DNA of 64,000 bases from Flavobacterium oncorhynchi. GTDB taxonomy: Bacteria > Bacteroidota > Bacteroidia > Flavobacteriales > Flavobacteriaceae. The position numbers were made by a program, and so were the translations under genes. Below are positions 21,358-63,972 of this stretch, piece after piece. The stretch spans positions 62,001-126,000 of the forward strand of contig NZ_MUHA01000021.1 of NCBI RefSeq assembly GCF_002217355.1. The letters run 5' to 3'. Each line of letters starts with the position of its first letter. Within the stretch, counting starts at the first letter, position 1. A model generated the notes under the pieces. The model worked only from the letters and a program-made list of their open reading frames with translations. It was not told the DNA's origin and did not search any database.

Positions 21358-21978
21358 TTAGCTTATCCAACTTTGCCATTGTACAATTATTTTCCATTTA
21401 CCGTTTGTTTTTTTTAAATATATGGCTTGTCCACTTCCGCATAAACCACCACATTCGTAATCTAATTCTACATATGCATTTTGTTTGTCAGCAGAGAAAA
21501 TAGGTATTGTCATTTCATAAAATCTTGATCGTTGCCCGTTTTTGCGTCTAATTTTGGTTTTTTCAATTGTAGTTGTGTTTAATTTTTCAACAATAGATTT
21601 TCCAATTTTTAGTTTATCTGGATTTGAATTTTGTTCTAACAGATACAGAGAATCTTTAGAGGAGAAAAAAGTTTGCCCTTTTATTTTACTAGGTATTAAT
21701 TGAGTAATGTATATACCGCCAGAAAGGGGAGGGAGTGCTATAAAATCTTTGCTGTTTTTTTTGTGAGGAATCCATATGTTAAGCTTTCTAAGTTCACTGT
21801 AAAACATTATAGAATCTTCGCTTTTGGAAAAAACATCTAAACTATCCTGAATTATAATTGCTTCTACAATTTCGTTGATATCTTTAATTTGCTCAGAAGC
21901 TATGCTGGTTTTCTCTTTTTTGTTTTGACAGCTGCAAACTGCAAAAATGATCACTATGTAAAGAATTGGTTTTTTCAT
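21358..21978 (-). CDS. hypothetical lipoprotein
   Basis: A 206-residue protein with a lipoprotein signal (MKKPILYIVIIFAVCSCQNK). I do not recognise the domain. The C-terminal third has a Cys pair in YECGGLCGSGQAIYLKK followed by NGKWKIIVQWQSWIS, a pattern seen in small exported Bacteroidota proteins. The middle part (LPPLSGGIYITQLIPSKIKG) is predicted beta-rich. It is transcribed on its own, facing the PUL end, and is separated from the DUF4374 gene by that operon's terminator. No function assigned. Confidence 0.6.
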   Translation of the reverse strand: MKKPILYIVIIFAVCSCQNKKEKTSIASEQIKDINEIVEAIIIQDSLDVFSKSEDSIMFYSELRKLNIWIPHKKNSKDFIALPPLSGGIYITQLIPSKIKGQTFFSSKDSLYLLEQNSNPDKLKIGKSIVEKLNTTTIEKTKIRRKNGQRSRFYEMTIPIFSADKQNAYVELDYECGGLCGSGQAIYLKKTNGKWKIIVQWQSWIS

Positions 21979-50254: not shown

Positions 50255-51769
50255 TCAATTAGTTAGAATGGGTTCTTTTATTTTTTTACATTGTTTAATG
50301 ATAATTAGGGCTGTGATAAGCATATTACTGAATTCAATAAAAGGAATTGTGATTTTGTCTTTTTCGATTAGAGAAACCGCTGCATTTTTCAGCATTTTAA
50401 TTTTTTCTAATGCGTGATCTTTATTACGATTTTCGCTGGTATAAAAAACGGTAATTAATACTTGCAGTTCTTTTTTTAGAATAGCAAAAGCTTCGTATGT
50501 GCTTGTGTCTGTTTCGGAAAACTTTGGGCGAGGTATTTTTGATGAAAATGCAAAATTTTGTATTGTTTTATCTATTTGTTCTGAGGCTTGATGTGCAAAA
50601 ACTAATGCTTCTAATAGCGAATTGGAAGCTAAACGATTTTTTCCATGTAATCCTGTTCTGGCACATTCTCCTATGGCATATAGATTTTGAATTGCCGTTA
50701 AACCGTTGCGATCAACTTTTATCCCGCCGCATTGATAATGCGCCGCCGGCACAATTGGAATTAAATCTTTTTCGGGCTTTATACCCGCTAGATTGCATTG
50801 TTTTGCAATTACAGGAAACTCTTTGTAAAACTCGACTGGATCTAAGTGGCGACAATCAAGATAAACGTGCTTTTTATTAGTATGCAGCATTTCGCTATTA
50901 ATGGCATGAGAAACGATATCACGTGTTGCTAATTCGCCCCGTGAATCGTATTTAAAAAGGAATCTTTTTTGATCTTCATTAACAACATAAGCGCCAAAAC
51001 CACGAACTGCTTCTGAAATTAGAAAAAACGGATTTTTACTGCCGGCATACAAGGCGGTGGGATGAAACTGGATGTATTGGAGGTCTTCAATTTCGATCCC
51101 AGCGCGGGCAGCCATTGCAATACCGTCACCCGTGGCAATTTCAGGATTGGTTGTGTTCTCAAAAAGCTGGCCGCAGCCGCCTGTACTCAATATGATGGTT
51201 CGGGTTTGTATATATTTTACAGAGTTGCTTTTTTTGTCATAATAAAAAGCACCAGTGCAAAGATTTTCTTCTCCGATTTTTTCGGTATTCAAATCAATAA
51301 CTTGATGGTTTTCGAGTAACTGTATGTTTGAAAGTTCTTTTATAATACTTAGAAGTTTTTTTTCAATTTCTAAGCCAGAACTGTCTTTATGATGCAATAT
51401 GCGATGATTAGAATGACCGCCTTCTAAACCCAAATTCCATTGTCCGAGTTCATCTTTATCAAAGGAAGTTCCAATGTCTAAAAGTTCTTTTAACCTTTCG
51501 GGCGCCTGCTTAATTACCATATTTACAATAGTTTCATCACAGCTTCCTTTGCCTGCTTGGAGTGTATCTTTAATGTGCTGGTCAAAGCTGTCTTTTATCA
51601 AATCGGTTACAACCGCAATACCGCCTTGTGCTAATTGTGTGTTTGTATTTTGAGCACTTTCTTTGGTCATAATTACAATTGACAAATCGGGTCTTTTTTG
51701 AGCTGTTTTCATAGCTAGAAAGAGTCCCGAAATACCTGAGCCAATTATTAAGATGTCAGTTTTAAGCAT
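50255..51769 (-). CDS. nadB: L-aspartate oxidase
   Basis: A 504-residue flavoprotein of the succinate dehydrogenase/fumarate reductase family: GSGISGLFLAMKTA dinucleotide fold, TNTQLAQGGIAVV, GLEGGHSNHRILHHKD, STGGCGQLFENTTNPE, FHPTALYAG and GKNRLASNSLLEALVFA. It oxidises aspartate to iminoaspartate for NAD synthesis, using O2 or fumarate, so it works without oxygen. It is 18 bases downstream of nadA. The unusual point is that NAD biosynthesis shares an operon with ric and class III ribonucleotide reductase. Confidence 0.95.
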   Translation of the reverse strand: MLKTDILIIGSGISGLFLAMKTAQKRPDLSIVIMTKESAQNTNTQLAQGGIAVVTDLIKDSFDQHIKDTLQAGKGSCDETIVNMVIKQAPERLKELLDIGTSFDKDELGQWNLGLEGGHSNHRILHHKDSSGLEIEKKLLSIIKELSNIQLLENHQVIDLNTEKIGEENLCTGAFYYDKKSNSVKYIQTRTIILSTGGCGQLFENTTNPEIATGDGIAMAARAGIEIEDLQYIQFHPTALYAGSKNPFFLISEAVRGFGAYVVNEDQKRFLFKYDSRGELATRDIVSHAINSEMLHTNKKHVYLDCRHLDPVEFYKEFPVIAKQCNLAGIKPEKDLIPIVPAAHYQCGGIKVDRNGLTAIQNLYAIGECARTGLHGKNRLASNSLLEALVFAHQASEQIDKTIQNFAFSSKIPRPKFSETDTSTYEAFAILKKELQVLITVFYTSENRNKDHALEKIKMLKNAAVSLIEKDKITIPFIEFSNMLITALIIIKQCKKIKEPILTN

Positions 51770-52843: not shown

Positions 52844-52888
52844 TAAATATATTGCCATCAAAAATTTCAAACTATGATTCCAGTCATA
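52844..52888 (-). promoter_or_regulatory. FNR-like operator and promoter of the nadA operon
   Basis: TATGATTCCAGTCATA (52873-52888) is a TATGA-N6-TCATA palindrome. On the - strand a -7-like TATATTTA occupies 52851-52844, with its TTTA 33.5-36.5 bases from the palindrome centre. The same spacing occurs at the nos and 63262 sites. It predicts activation centred near -41.5 and a start near 52839. Confidence 0.7.
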
Positions 52889-56342: not shown

Positions 56343-56416
56343 CGAAGGTATCATCAACTTTTTCTTTAAAGTATGATCGTAATCATAATTTAAGAAATAC
56401 ATCTTGTGGAACTTTG
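56343..56416. promoter_or_regulatory. bidirectional FNR-like operator between the copper genes and nos
   Basis: TATGATCGTAATCATA (56372-56387) is a perfect TATGA-N6-TCATA palindrome. On the + strand GAACTTTG (56409-56416) and on the - strand TACCTTCG (56350-56343) are -7-like boxes whose last four bases lie exactly 33.5-36.5 bases from the centre on each side. One dimer could thus activate both transcripts at about -41.5. Confidence 0.75.
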
Positions 56417-62775: not shown

Positions 62776-63147
62776 ATGAAAACAGATATTAAAGACAAAG
62801 ACGATATTATAATCTTAGTAGATGCTTTTTATTTAAAAATTAGAAGTGATCCTACTATTGGTTATTTGTTTACAGAAGTAGCAGCGGTAAACTGGGAAAA
62901 ACACCTTCCGATAATGTATGATTTTTGGGATAATATTTTATTTCATACGGGAAACTTTGATGGAAATCCGATGATGAAACATCGAATGTTAAATCAGAAA
63001 AGCCTTTTGACGGAGGCTCATTTTAAGCACTGGACAAAGTTGTGGAAAAAAACGGTCGATGATTTGTTTGAAGGAGAAAAGGCTAGAGAAGTCAAAATTA
63101 GGGCTGACAATATCTCAAAAGCAATGATGAACAAAGTAATAAGTTAA
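62776..63147 (+). CDS. group III truncated haemoglobin
   Basis: A 123-residue globin of the 2-on-2 group III type: FYLKIRSDPTIGYLFTEVA, WEKHLPIMYDFWDNILFHTG, MMKHRMLNQKSLLTEAHFKH with the proximal His in TEAHFKHW, and a C-terminal helix. It has no signal peptide, so it is cytoplasmic, and may bind NO or O2. It is 38 bases after nosY and so joins the nos transcript. A role in NO detoxification or delivery during denitrification is likely. Confidence 0.93.
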   Translation: MKTDIKDKDDIIILVDAFYLKIRSDPTIGYLFTEVAAVNWEKHLPIMYDFWDNILFHTGNFDGNPMMKHRMLNQKSLLTEAHFKHWTKLWKKTVDDLFEGEKAREVKIRADNISKAMMNKVIS

Positions 63148-63180
63148 AAAAGCGGGAACTATTGAAGTTCCCGCTTTTTT
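63146..63180. terminator. bidirectional terminator of the nos operon and the predicted small RNA
   Basis: A 9-bp perfect stem GCGGGAACT (63152-63160) / AGTTCCCGC (63166-63174) with loop ATTGA, flanked by A6 on the left and T6 on the right, so it works in both directions. Confidence 0.92.
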
Positions 63181-63228
63181 ACTTTAAAACGTTATGAAAT
63201 TTGAATTAATAATTTATCATTTAACCTT
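63146..63228 (-). ncRNA. predicted FNR-like-regulated small RNA
   Basis: On the - strand the operator palindrome at 63262-63277 is followed by GTCCTTTG (63240-63233), whose TTTG sits 33.5-36.5 bases from the centre exactly as in the nos promoter. A transcript starting near 63228 would run about 83 nt into the terminator at 63180-63146. The body is A/U-rich and unstructured and encodes no peptide longer than four residues. This is the layout of an anaerobic small RNA such as E. coli FnrS. It is prediction from sequence only. Confidence 0.5.
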
Positions 63229-63232
63229 TTCT

Positions 63233-63277
63233 CAAAGGACGTGAATATTTGAACCATAGATTATGATTTGAGTCATA
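63233..63277 (-). promoter_or_regulatory. FNR-like operator and orphan promoter
   Basis: TATGATTTGAGTCATA (63262-63277) is the third TATGA-N6-TCATA palindrome. No CDS starts downstream of it on the - strand before the terminator; on the + strand no -7-like box occurs at the matching spacing. It lies just past the 3' end of the Crp/Fnr gene. Confidence 0.7.
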
Positions 63278-63299: not shown

Positions 63300-63896
63300 C
63301 TAGTAGAATAATTTGTGATCAATTATTTCAATTTTTTTATTCTTTTTCATGAGAGTCAAAGTTCTAATTACAGTTTCAACTCTTAATCCCGTAAAATCAG
63401 CAATTTCCTGACGTGTATATGGAATTTTAATTTTTTGATTCGATTTTGTGCTATGCTGTCTTTTAAAATTATCTAAAAAATATTGTATGCGATGTTCTGG
63501 TTTATGGTTAATAATATTTTTAGAGAAAACGATTTTATTATAAATTCTTGAGGCAAATAATTTCAATATTTTCTTTTGTGCTTCAGGATTTTCTTCAAGA
63601 AAAGAGAAAAAATTAAGTCTAGAAAGTTTTAAAATCACACAGTCTGTTTGAGCTAATGCCGATGCAGGATAGGGCTCGCCAATAATTAACGGCGGTTCTC
63701 CAAAACTATCTCCTTTATTAAATACACCAATAGTAAGATCTTTACCATCTTCGTTAGTGTAGCTCATTTTTACGGTTCCTTCTAAAATTTGAAAAAAGGA
63801 TAACGCGGGATCATTCTCATAAAAAATGATTGCGTTTTTGGGAACTTTTTTTGCAATTGCTCCCCACGTATAGAGCAAATCAGTATCAATGTGCAT
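63300..63896 (-). CDS. Crp/Fnr-family regulator, probable denitrification regulator
   Basis: ATG 63896 is preferred to the TTG-initiated form at 63905; 198 residues. A cNMP-like beta-roll (AIIFYENDPALSFFQILEGT, VFNKGDSFGEPPLIIGEPYP) is followed by a dimer helix and a winged helix with TRQEIADFTGLRVETVIRTL. It lacks the N-terminal cysteines of FNR (one Cys in all), so a haem- or NO-sensing DNR-type mode is more likely than an oxygen-labile cluster. The recognition helix reads E-T-V-I-R where FNR has E-T-I-S-R, consistent with the TGA core and the altered outer bases of the local TATGA-N6-TCATA boxes. It is the best candidate to bind all three. Confidence 0.85.
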   Translation of the reverse strand: MHIDTDLLYTWGAIAKKVPKNAIIFYENDPALSFFQILEGTVKMSYTNEDGKDLTIGVFNKGDSFGEPPLIIGEPYPASALAQTDCVILKLSRLNFFSFLEENPEAQKKILKLFASRIYNKIVFSKNIINHKPEHRIQYFLDNFKRQHSTKSNQKIKIPYTRQEIADFTGLRVETVIRTLTLMKKNKKIEIIDHKLFY

Positions 63897-63972
63897 TTTT
63901 ATCAATAATTAATTTATTAATAAATGATATATGCTCTTCCTTTTTAATTCTACGTTTAACACTCTTATTCAT
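63886..63972 (-). CDS. possible 28-residue upstream ORF overlapping the regulator start
   Basis: On the - strand ATG 63972 opens a basic peptide beginning MNKSVKRRIKKEEH that ends at TGA 63888-63886, overlapping the regulator ATG by a few codons. It could couple or limit translation of the regulator, but short AT-rich frames arise by chance, so support is weak. Confidence 0.2.
   Translation of the reverse strand: MNKSVKRRIKKEEHISFINKLIIDKNAH

Follow-up and report, generated by a model that had tools for sequence, protein, structure and literature searches.

FnrS of Escherichia coli is an FNR-induced intergenic small RNA that acts in trans by short pairing, and the half-site of FNR is TTGAT. 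In the passages that describe it, NarS of Salmonella comes from the 3' UTR of narK, a gene controlled by FNR and NarL, and RNase E cuts it from the intact mRNA (PMC9438474). MicL/MicL-S of E. coli, as described in the passages concerned, is an RNA of ~80 nt from a 3'-UTR region next to cutC, which targets lpp and is under sigma-E (PMC8216713). For FopS and GibS of Bacteroides thetaiotaomicron, the relevant passages report a conserved single-stranded 5' seed followed by a terminator, a length of ~65-70 nt, action near the start codon of surface-protein mRNAs and control by bile salts and glycans; 14 copies of FopS are mentioned and, according to the same source, FopS has been deposited in Rfam (PMC11697453). 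Within the genus Flavobacterium, transcriptomics has led to the description of the small RNA Rfp18 in F. psychrophilum (PMC9723704) and of small RNA candidates in F. columnare (PMC5395568); the passages on these RNAs mention no Crp/Fnr control, and the term 'fnr' has 0 occurrences in the available text of either paper.

The locus considered here lies in a stretch of 64,000 nucleotides from the genome of Flavobacterium oncorhynchi, which was analysed as a whole and is referred to as the window. It resembles FnrS in its expected activation by a Crp/Fnr protein at low oxygen, in its intergenic place and in its presumed short pairing in trans; unlike FnrS, the small RNA has no sequence match to that RNA, belongs to another phylum, has a TATGA box and lies adjacent to its presumed regulator. 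The initial annotation of this DNA had called the RNA FnrS-like, and this description is appropriate as an analogy of control by a Crp/Fnr-type promoter. It does not extend to homology, as no Rfam family, FnrS included, reaches its gathering score in the window, the 80 sub-threshold matches do not include FnrS either, and the adjacent regulator is without the FNR cysteines. Induction of the small RNA under anaerobic conditions is presumed. With NarS, as far as it is described in the passages concerned, the locus shares the apparent origin of its small RNA in the 3' part of an mRNA under anaerobic control, but at this locus no coding sequence is left between the promoter and the RNA. The likeness to MicL, within the same limits, consists in a length of ~80 nt, a 3'-UTR origin and the mRNA of a small envelope lipoprotein as the aim; the differences are that MicL is under sigma-E whereas Crp/Fnr control is indicated here, that the target is a predicted one, and that the lipoprotein has no Pfam-based link to Lpp. 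FopS and GibS, going by the passages on them, have the same anatomy and come from the same phylum; in contrast to them, the RNA considered here has no Rfam match at the gathering score and is represented by one match with a Crp/Fnr box. Rfp18 and the F. columnare candidates belong to the same genus and are likened by their description only. PaiI of Pseudomonas aeruginosa and a circuit of Paracoccus denitrificans also involve small RNA regulation in N-oxide respiration, but they are proteobacterial and depend upon other regulators, and their sequences were compared via Rfam only. In the passages cited above, no parent mRNA that has lost its coding sequence is mentioned. Our overall assessment, based on sequence analysis, is that there is a high likelihood that the locus is a regulated small RNA gene, that the origin proposed for it below is likely, and that the odds for the lipoprotein target are even.

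Promoter and flanking genes

The two genes flanking the predicted small RNA gene (Table 1) are both directed into the gap between them, and therefore the box and the promoter in this gap serve neither of them, in agreement with the original statement that this palindrome is not upstream of any gene. The box TATGATTTGAGTCATA (63262-63277) is a perfect palindrome of the form TATGA-N6-TCATA with 0 mismatches, and the element GTCCTTTG is located on the - strand exactly 21 nt past it. As had also been noticed earlier, this distance from the box to the -7 element is the same at nos, and it is found as well in the ten relatives set out in the identity comparison described below. A -7 box at -12 to -5 has been mapped in F. 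psychrophilum, according to the passages concerned (PMC9723704); with the -7 box placed at these positions, the predicted start is at 63228 and the centre of the box at -41.5. The perfect palindrome and its spacing are confirmed; the designation of the box as FNR-like requires correction, as the box is of the TATGA type and the adjacent regulator has one Cys. The FNR consensus TTGAT-N4-ATCAA, when considered as the operator, showed no enrichment in the window (102 found vs 95 expected).

Table 1. Positions of the features of the small RNA locus and of the sites compared with it
Feature	Position	Strand	Remarks
Small globin-like gene	62776-63147	+	Convergent with the small RNA, behind the nos genes
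Bidirectional intrinsic terminator	63146-63180	both	Common to the nos-globin side on the + strand
Predicted small RNA	63146-63228	-	81-83 nt; single-stranded 5' part and terminator hairpin
Core block (block 2) UUAUUAAUUC	63203-63212	-	Complementary to GAAUUAAUAA, +1 to +10 of the lipoprotein leader
5' block (block 1) AAGGUUAA	63221-63228	-	Complementary to UUAACCUU, +11 to +18 of the lipoprotein leader
-7 promoter element GTCCTTTG	63233-63240	-	Bacteroidota sigma-A type, consensus TAnnTTTG
Crp/Fnr-type operator TATGACTCAAATCATA	63262-63277	-	Centre at about -41.5, class II activator position
Crp/Fnr-family regulator gene	63300-63905	-	Upstream of the small RNA
nos operon box (comparison site)	56372-56387	+	GAACTTTG after the same 21-nt spacing
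18-nt leader GAATTAATAATTAACCTT of the lipoprotein mRNA	G000:C7:86746-86781	-	Behind the TATCTTTG promoter; L243-L246, L257-L286

Perfect boxes number 18 in the 4.73-Mb genome of F. oncorhynchi, so that about 5e-4 of them are expected per 120 bp; as the reversed control contains 13, many of the copies elsewhere in the genome may be due to chance. Three perfect boxes are present in the window, all inside 10.4 kb. When up to 2 mismatches to the TATGA pattern are allowed, there is no enrichment in the window (53 found vs 51 expected), and outstanding in it are only the perfect TATGA boxes and their spacing. In the entire genome, TTTG occurs at 21 or 22 nt from 8 of the 36 oriented boxes, compared with about 0.31 at each of the other offsets, and the spacing between box and TTTG is other than chance. 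These 8 boxes precede nos, nirK, ccoS/ccoNO, the small RNA, the genes for a P-type ATPase and a TonB-dependent receptor, an ORF with a second globin gene behind it, and a peptidase-like gene, where the name nirK is from NCBIfam, those of the receptor and the globin are from Pfam, and the others represent our own reading of the sequences. The third perfect box of the window (52873-52888) adjoins the listed start of nadA, and neither strand has TTTG at 21-22 nt from it; the true start of nadA may be further inside the gene.

The regulator encoded at 63300-63905, as read from its sequence, contains a single Cys in the whole protein and is therefore without an FNR-type cysteine cluster. Several Crp/Fnr proteins are encoded by this genome; another of them starts with MSKCDQC, and it could be the acting regulator instead of the adjacent one. 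The globin-like protein (62776-63147) has no match of its own in Pfam or NCBIfam, and it shows 37% identity to a Pfam-confirmed globin encoded elsewhere in the genome (L011; G000:C23:265300-268000). At L011, a second Crp/Fnr gene is followed by a box, a 94-aa ORF and the globin gene, a layout paralleling that of the locus in the window.

The predicted RNA and its conservation

The predicted start gives an RNA whose length accords with the ~83 nt originally estimated. The terminator consists of a perfect 15-bp stem (63146-63160/63166-63180), is accompanied by A and T tracts and can be used in either direction; an 88-nt piece which includes it folds at -25.3 kcal/mol (z -6.3), and the RNA upstream of the hairpin is nearly unstructured (-1.0 kcal/mol). 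The RNA has no usable ORF, since its first 75 nt contain a single start codon, which opens a 4-codon frame (MINY-stop). For the regulator gene, which is on the same strand and uses the same terminator, this stretch serves as the 3' UTR as well. The core block lies inside AATTATTAATTCA (63202-63214), which is present in 8 copies in this genome vs 1 in the reversed control, with some of the copies located downstream of genes; ATTATTAATTCA (see below) may be a 3'-UTR element of wider use.

The conservation of the interval was examined in 16 Flavobacterium loci picked by similarity of the regulator protein and not of the RNA. In these loci the convergent globin gene is kept in all 16, as is a hairpin at the terminator position (read by eye). 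An exact box is found in 14 of them, L084 departs from it by one mismatch, and L090 has lost it. It had been suggested that conservation of the interval beside nos clusters should be looked for, and nos genes adjoin it in 14/16 loci, the exceptions being L080 (F. johnsoniae CI04) and L084, in which the RNA is present but the fetched stretch contains no nos genes. The combined loss of box and terminator where the neighbours are kept was likewise a point raised earlier; such a loss is seen for the box alone and in one of the 16 loci (L090).

Pairwise identities were calculated for 11 representatives, leaving out L077, L078, L086, L087 and L091, which are close to others, and the boxless L090. 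The mean identity is 0.98 for the box arms, 0.58 for the 6-nt box core, 0.47 for the 21-nt spacer (which is of fixed length), 0.83 for the -7 box, 0.85 for the core ATTATTAATTC and 0.52 for the next 15 nt, with the third codon positions of the regulator (0.60) serving as the baseline. A second count, with 15 representatives, gave 0.47 for the spacer, 0.92 for AAATTATTAATTCA and 0.58 for the 5' AAGGTTAAA; the low value for the latter is in our view a misalignment arising from length changes. In 10 of the 11 sequences, reading by eye places GGTTAA at the 5' end or a few bases from it; L088 and L091 are without AGGTTAA at the usual place, and the cores of L080 and L084 are degraded. The seed of the small RNA is conserved and is mostly unpaired. 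The terminator stem shows paired changes (e.g. GGGAAC/GTTCCC vs GGGCGC/GCGCCC), and in 18 aligned sequences 4 of its 11 pairs are changed on both sides, a covariation not equalled in any of 500 shuffles. Coding potential was considered and rejected, as no start is conserved and no reading frame is conserved among 24 sequences.

A covariance model of the RNA (R1) was also run over 398 Flavobacterium genomes, 64 of which contain matches at E <= 0.001; under stricter filters the F. oncorhynchi genome has one match. Thirty loci were read from these matches, and 20 of them (L101-L119 and L124; one genome each, with F. oncorhynchi included) have the small-RNA arrangement, the box being exact in 18, with one mismatch in L118 and lost in L119. 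Of the other 10 loci, at least 8 are the 3' UTRs of FAS1 genes, L122 is something else, and L128 was assigned to neither class. The conserved box arms, the fixed spacing, the core, the terminator and the lack of a conserved frame all support the initial prediction of an intergenic small RNA of the Crp/Fnr type, which is very probably transcribed under the control of a protein of this family.

Relationship to FAS1 genes

In other members of Flavobacterium, the slot occupied by the small RNA has the order regulator, a 405-aa membrane protein, box, TACTTTG or a similar element, FAS1, stop codon, ATTATTAATTCA and terminator. The convergent globin gene is also present in slots of this type, except in G118 (L060), which has other convergent genes. 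In 15 distinct FAS1 3' UTRs of the genus (protein identity >=71%, identical UTRs counted once), the exact ATTATTAATTCA is found within 7 nt behind the stop codon in 12, although this proportion is inflated because most of these UTRs were fetched through their similarity to the small RNA; two others (L127 and L123) carry it with one change and it is missing in L143. In FAS1 loci chosen otherwise, the element is present in 7/10 (L141, L142, G036, G032, G012, G023 and G002; missing in L143, G009 and G013), where, for the genomes designated by G, which came from a search with the regulator, it was read in L019 and L065 and deduced from slot matches in the other three. The element is missing in 7 outgroup FAS1 genes and in 10 paralogues from the small-RNA genomes.

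Seven loci (L144-L150) from a different family within the order also show the neighbourhood of regulator, 405-aa protein and FAS1, with FAS1 inverted, and due to this the FAS1 state is probably the older one. In a tree of the regulators, the 17 of the small-RNA type form one group with support of 100/99 and a long stem; as this tree comes with a warning that long branches meet, and does not show whether the FAS1 types are paraphyletic, it is on the outgroup that the direction of change is based. FAS1 matches are present in 19 of the 20 small-RNA genomes (none in G202), the best with 56% identity, and no FAS1 gene is located at the slot in any of the 20. In F. oncorhynchi the slot contains no FAS1 gene from which the presumed parental mRNA could come, and the best FAS1 of this genome is a 54% relative on another contig, which has neither a perfect box nor the element. 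No FAS1 relatives were found in viral contigs. Judged by its sequence, the small RNA looks like a FAS1 mRNA minus the coding sequence, and the simplest reading is that the 405-aa and FAS1 coding sequences were lost and the promoter became joined to the 3' end. Synteny and sequence link the two types of loci, the presumed direction of change is from FAS1 to the small RNA, and a derivation of the small RNA from FAS1 mRNA appears probable.

The 405-aa membrane protein, which has no Pfam or NCBIfam match, has a Crp/Fnr regulator on one side and a fasciclin gene on the other in two families of the order (L018-L024 and L141-L150), and a 30% relative of it is encoded near nirK in F. oncorhynchi (G000:C17:24522-25595).

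A lipoprotein leader as the predicted target

Eight small-RNA genomes were searched for the complement of block 2 (GAATTAATAAT) followed after 0-30 nt by ATG, which gave 95 rows, some of them representing one place with two ATGs. A single match recurs in all 8 genomes, viz. GAATTAATAATTAACCTTTTATAATAAAGTAAG-ATG in the leader of a small Ala-rich lipoprotein (MKKVFLSLAVVAVLTVVSCKKADA...). The complement of block 1, TTAACCTT, which was outside the search, abuts the block 2 site in this leader and in 0 of the 87 other rows. The two blocks of the RNA together are complementary to an uninterrupted run of 18 nt with which the mRNA is predicted to begin. The leader starts four bases past TATCTTTG in 29/29 leaders read, and because it is preceded by TATCTTTG and these four bases, its beginning (GAATT...) is the predicted +1 of the lipoprotein mRNA. 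The lipoprotein, which belongs to no Pfam family, is 71-74 aa in the four genomes read and 63-78 aa where complete, with a C-terminal part that varies; in our own reading it has seven-residue Val-Asp-Ser-Ala repeats and a terminal Lys, giving an impression of likeness to Braun's lipoprotein.

The complementarity of the RNA extends from +1 to +18 with a bulge of 6-8 nt on the RNA side, and both partners are nearly open in the pairing region. In F. cutihirudinis (L088) and F. denitrificans DSM 15936 (L091) there is a contiguous match of 17/18 with no bulge, and one change in block 2 of L079 leaves a G-U pair. The pairing energy is -16.5 kcal/mol (z -3.1), a modest value reached by 3 of 200 shuffles. 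Among 37 leaders of the window, the lipoprotein leader ranks first for 10 of 24 small RNA sequences (rank 6 for L080 and rank 14 for L084), one leader sequence having been used for all species. A scan of 42,647 windows of 33 nt had the 5' part of the RNA as the best partner of the leader, but this is partly circular and is not counted as proof, because the leader was found with block 2, and it is the adjacency of block 1 that constitutes the independent part.

An exact copy of the 18-mer is present in 40 of the 42 genomes chosen, comprising 19/20 with the RNA and 21/22 others, mostly FAS1 types; G100 and G213 lack it. If up to 3 mismatches are allowed, the 36-nt leader is present in 81 of 150 evenly drawn genomes of the genus, where variants with a shifted tail fail the pattern. 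In F. oncorhynchi five places are within 3 mismatches of the 21-nt start of the leader, and the leader alone is perfect. Genomes that lack the small RNA conserve the leader to the same degree, so that an additional cause must underlie its conservation. From the complementarity we infer the pairing and its outcome; the small RNA fairly likely acts in trans by pairing, and whether the lipoprotein mRNA is its true target is evenly balanced.

Other candidate targets were also considered. The leaders of nosZ, nirK, cco and the regulator are unremarkable among 53 leaders, in which the strongest pairings are those of the gene 21358-21978 (-21.9 kcal/mol, z -4.2), which has no Pfam match and pairs via the unconserved middle of the RNA, and of 50255-51769 (-19.0 kcal/mol, z -3.5), which encodes an FAD-binding protein. 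As a target signal before ATG, TTTTAACCTT shows no excess over the reversed control in 6 genomes, and two other matches to it that recur between species are inside coding sequence. The doxX-like genes keep TTTAACC(T) shortly 5' of the ATG in most of 29 genomes read (L201, L214-L242), and this site is kept both with and without the RNA, so that there is no co-occurrence.

Proposed mechanism and alternative interpretations

In the mechanism that we propose, low oxygen or NO would cause a Crp/Fnr activator, most simply the adjacent one, to bind the box at -41.5 and to turn on the 81-83-nt RNA along with nos, nirK, the cbb3 oxidase and other genes in which the same layout is observed. The FAS1 coding sequence would have been lost, while the promoter, the 3'-UTR element and the terminator stayed. 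The single-stranded 5' part of the RNA would pair with the first 18 nt of the lipoprotein mRNA, at -33 to -16 of the start codon, and the loading of ribosomes would then be impeded or the mRNA laid open to decay, the result probably being repression; alternatively, the 5' end might be protected and the lipoprotein raised. Taken as a whole, this account of a free-standing, Crp/Fnr-activated small RNA, which is a relic of a FAS1 mRNA and pairs with the lipoprotein mRNA, is the explanation that we moderately favour. A further step, suggested only tentatively, is that the FAS1 3' UTR already held a seed against the lipoprotein mRNA, and that after loss of the coding sequence in one clade this seed was kept and completed to give a dedicated small RNA.

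If the promoter, the UTR piece and the terminator of the lost FAS1 gene were still making an RNA without function, with the terminator being kept since it ends the nos-globin and regulator transcripts, the locus would be a dying remnant. The presence of FAS1 in the slot of other species, the loss of the box in L090 and the damaged cores of L080 and L084 are in keeping with this; however, a relic should keep the terminator only, whereas the box arms, the spacing and the core are kept above the level of the spacer and of the third codon positions of the regulator, and we consider this interpretation unlikely. Less probable again is that the stretch merely forms the 3' UTR of the regulator mRNA, or is processed from that mRNA, with the promoter unused. 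Its position downstream of the regulator, on the same strand and with a shared terminator, would suit such a role, but a conserved box at a fixed distance from the -7 element would be purposeless in a plain 3' UTR, and the loci of the FAS1 type have the same kind of box before a gene.

The same RNA may also have targets other than the lipoprotein mRNA, e.g. the doxX-like mRNA with its UUUAACC leader. This is possible though somewhat doubtful: the doxX-like motif is widespread in the genomes read, and some AU-rich leaders, such as the two with the strongest pairings noted above, pair as well or better, but the doxX site is present without the RNA too and uses block 1 only, the pairing of 21358-21978 relies on the unconserved middle of the RNA, and among the 95 rows of the search only the lipoprotein leader uses both blocks and recurs in all 8 genomes. 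That the locus is a gene for a small peptide is highly improbable; L052, L057 and L058 do have an ATG at the 5' end with at least 11 codons, but neither start nor frame is conserved, MINY-stop is all that the window sequence and its two nearest relatives contain, and an ATG close to the 5' end is lacking in most of the 24 sequences.

Significance and related observations

Among the matches listed in the literature, subscription papers aside, there was no Crp/Fnr-controlled small RNA from Bacteroidota and none tied to nosZ in Flavobacterium. The F. oncorhynchi genome carries nosZ, and post-transcriptional control at this locus would therefore bear on N2O turnover. If the more tentative scenario, with a seed already in the FAS1 3' UTR, is correct, a small RNA born from a relic ties N-oxide respiration to the composition of the cell envelope. 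The locus also offers a before-and-after series, viz. a FAS1 mRNA with a seed in its UTR vs the RNA alone, and so makes it possible to test how a small RNA arises from a lost gene. That the 18-nt leader is invariant while the protein drifts is a puzzle which such an RNA may help to explain.

Two further elements were observed elsewhere. In F. oncorhynchi, AATTATTAATTC is located before a terminator in an intergenic position (L098; G000:C45:29657-29669), and GAATTAATAATTATTTATG, representing the other strand of this element, recurs in 5 of 8 genomes; L098 is possibly another RNA with an anti-leader block. In another genome, AAGGTTATATGAAAAATTATTAATTCAAA occurs together with another terminator and without a perfect box (L067; G274:C79:3823-3851), and this is a possible relative of the small RNA in another setting.
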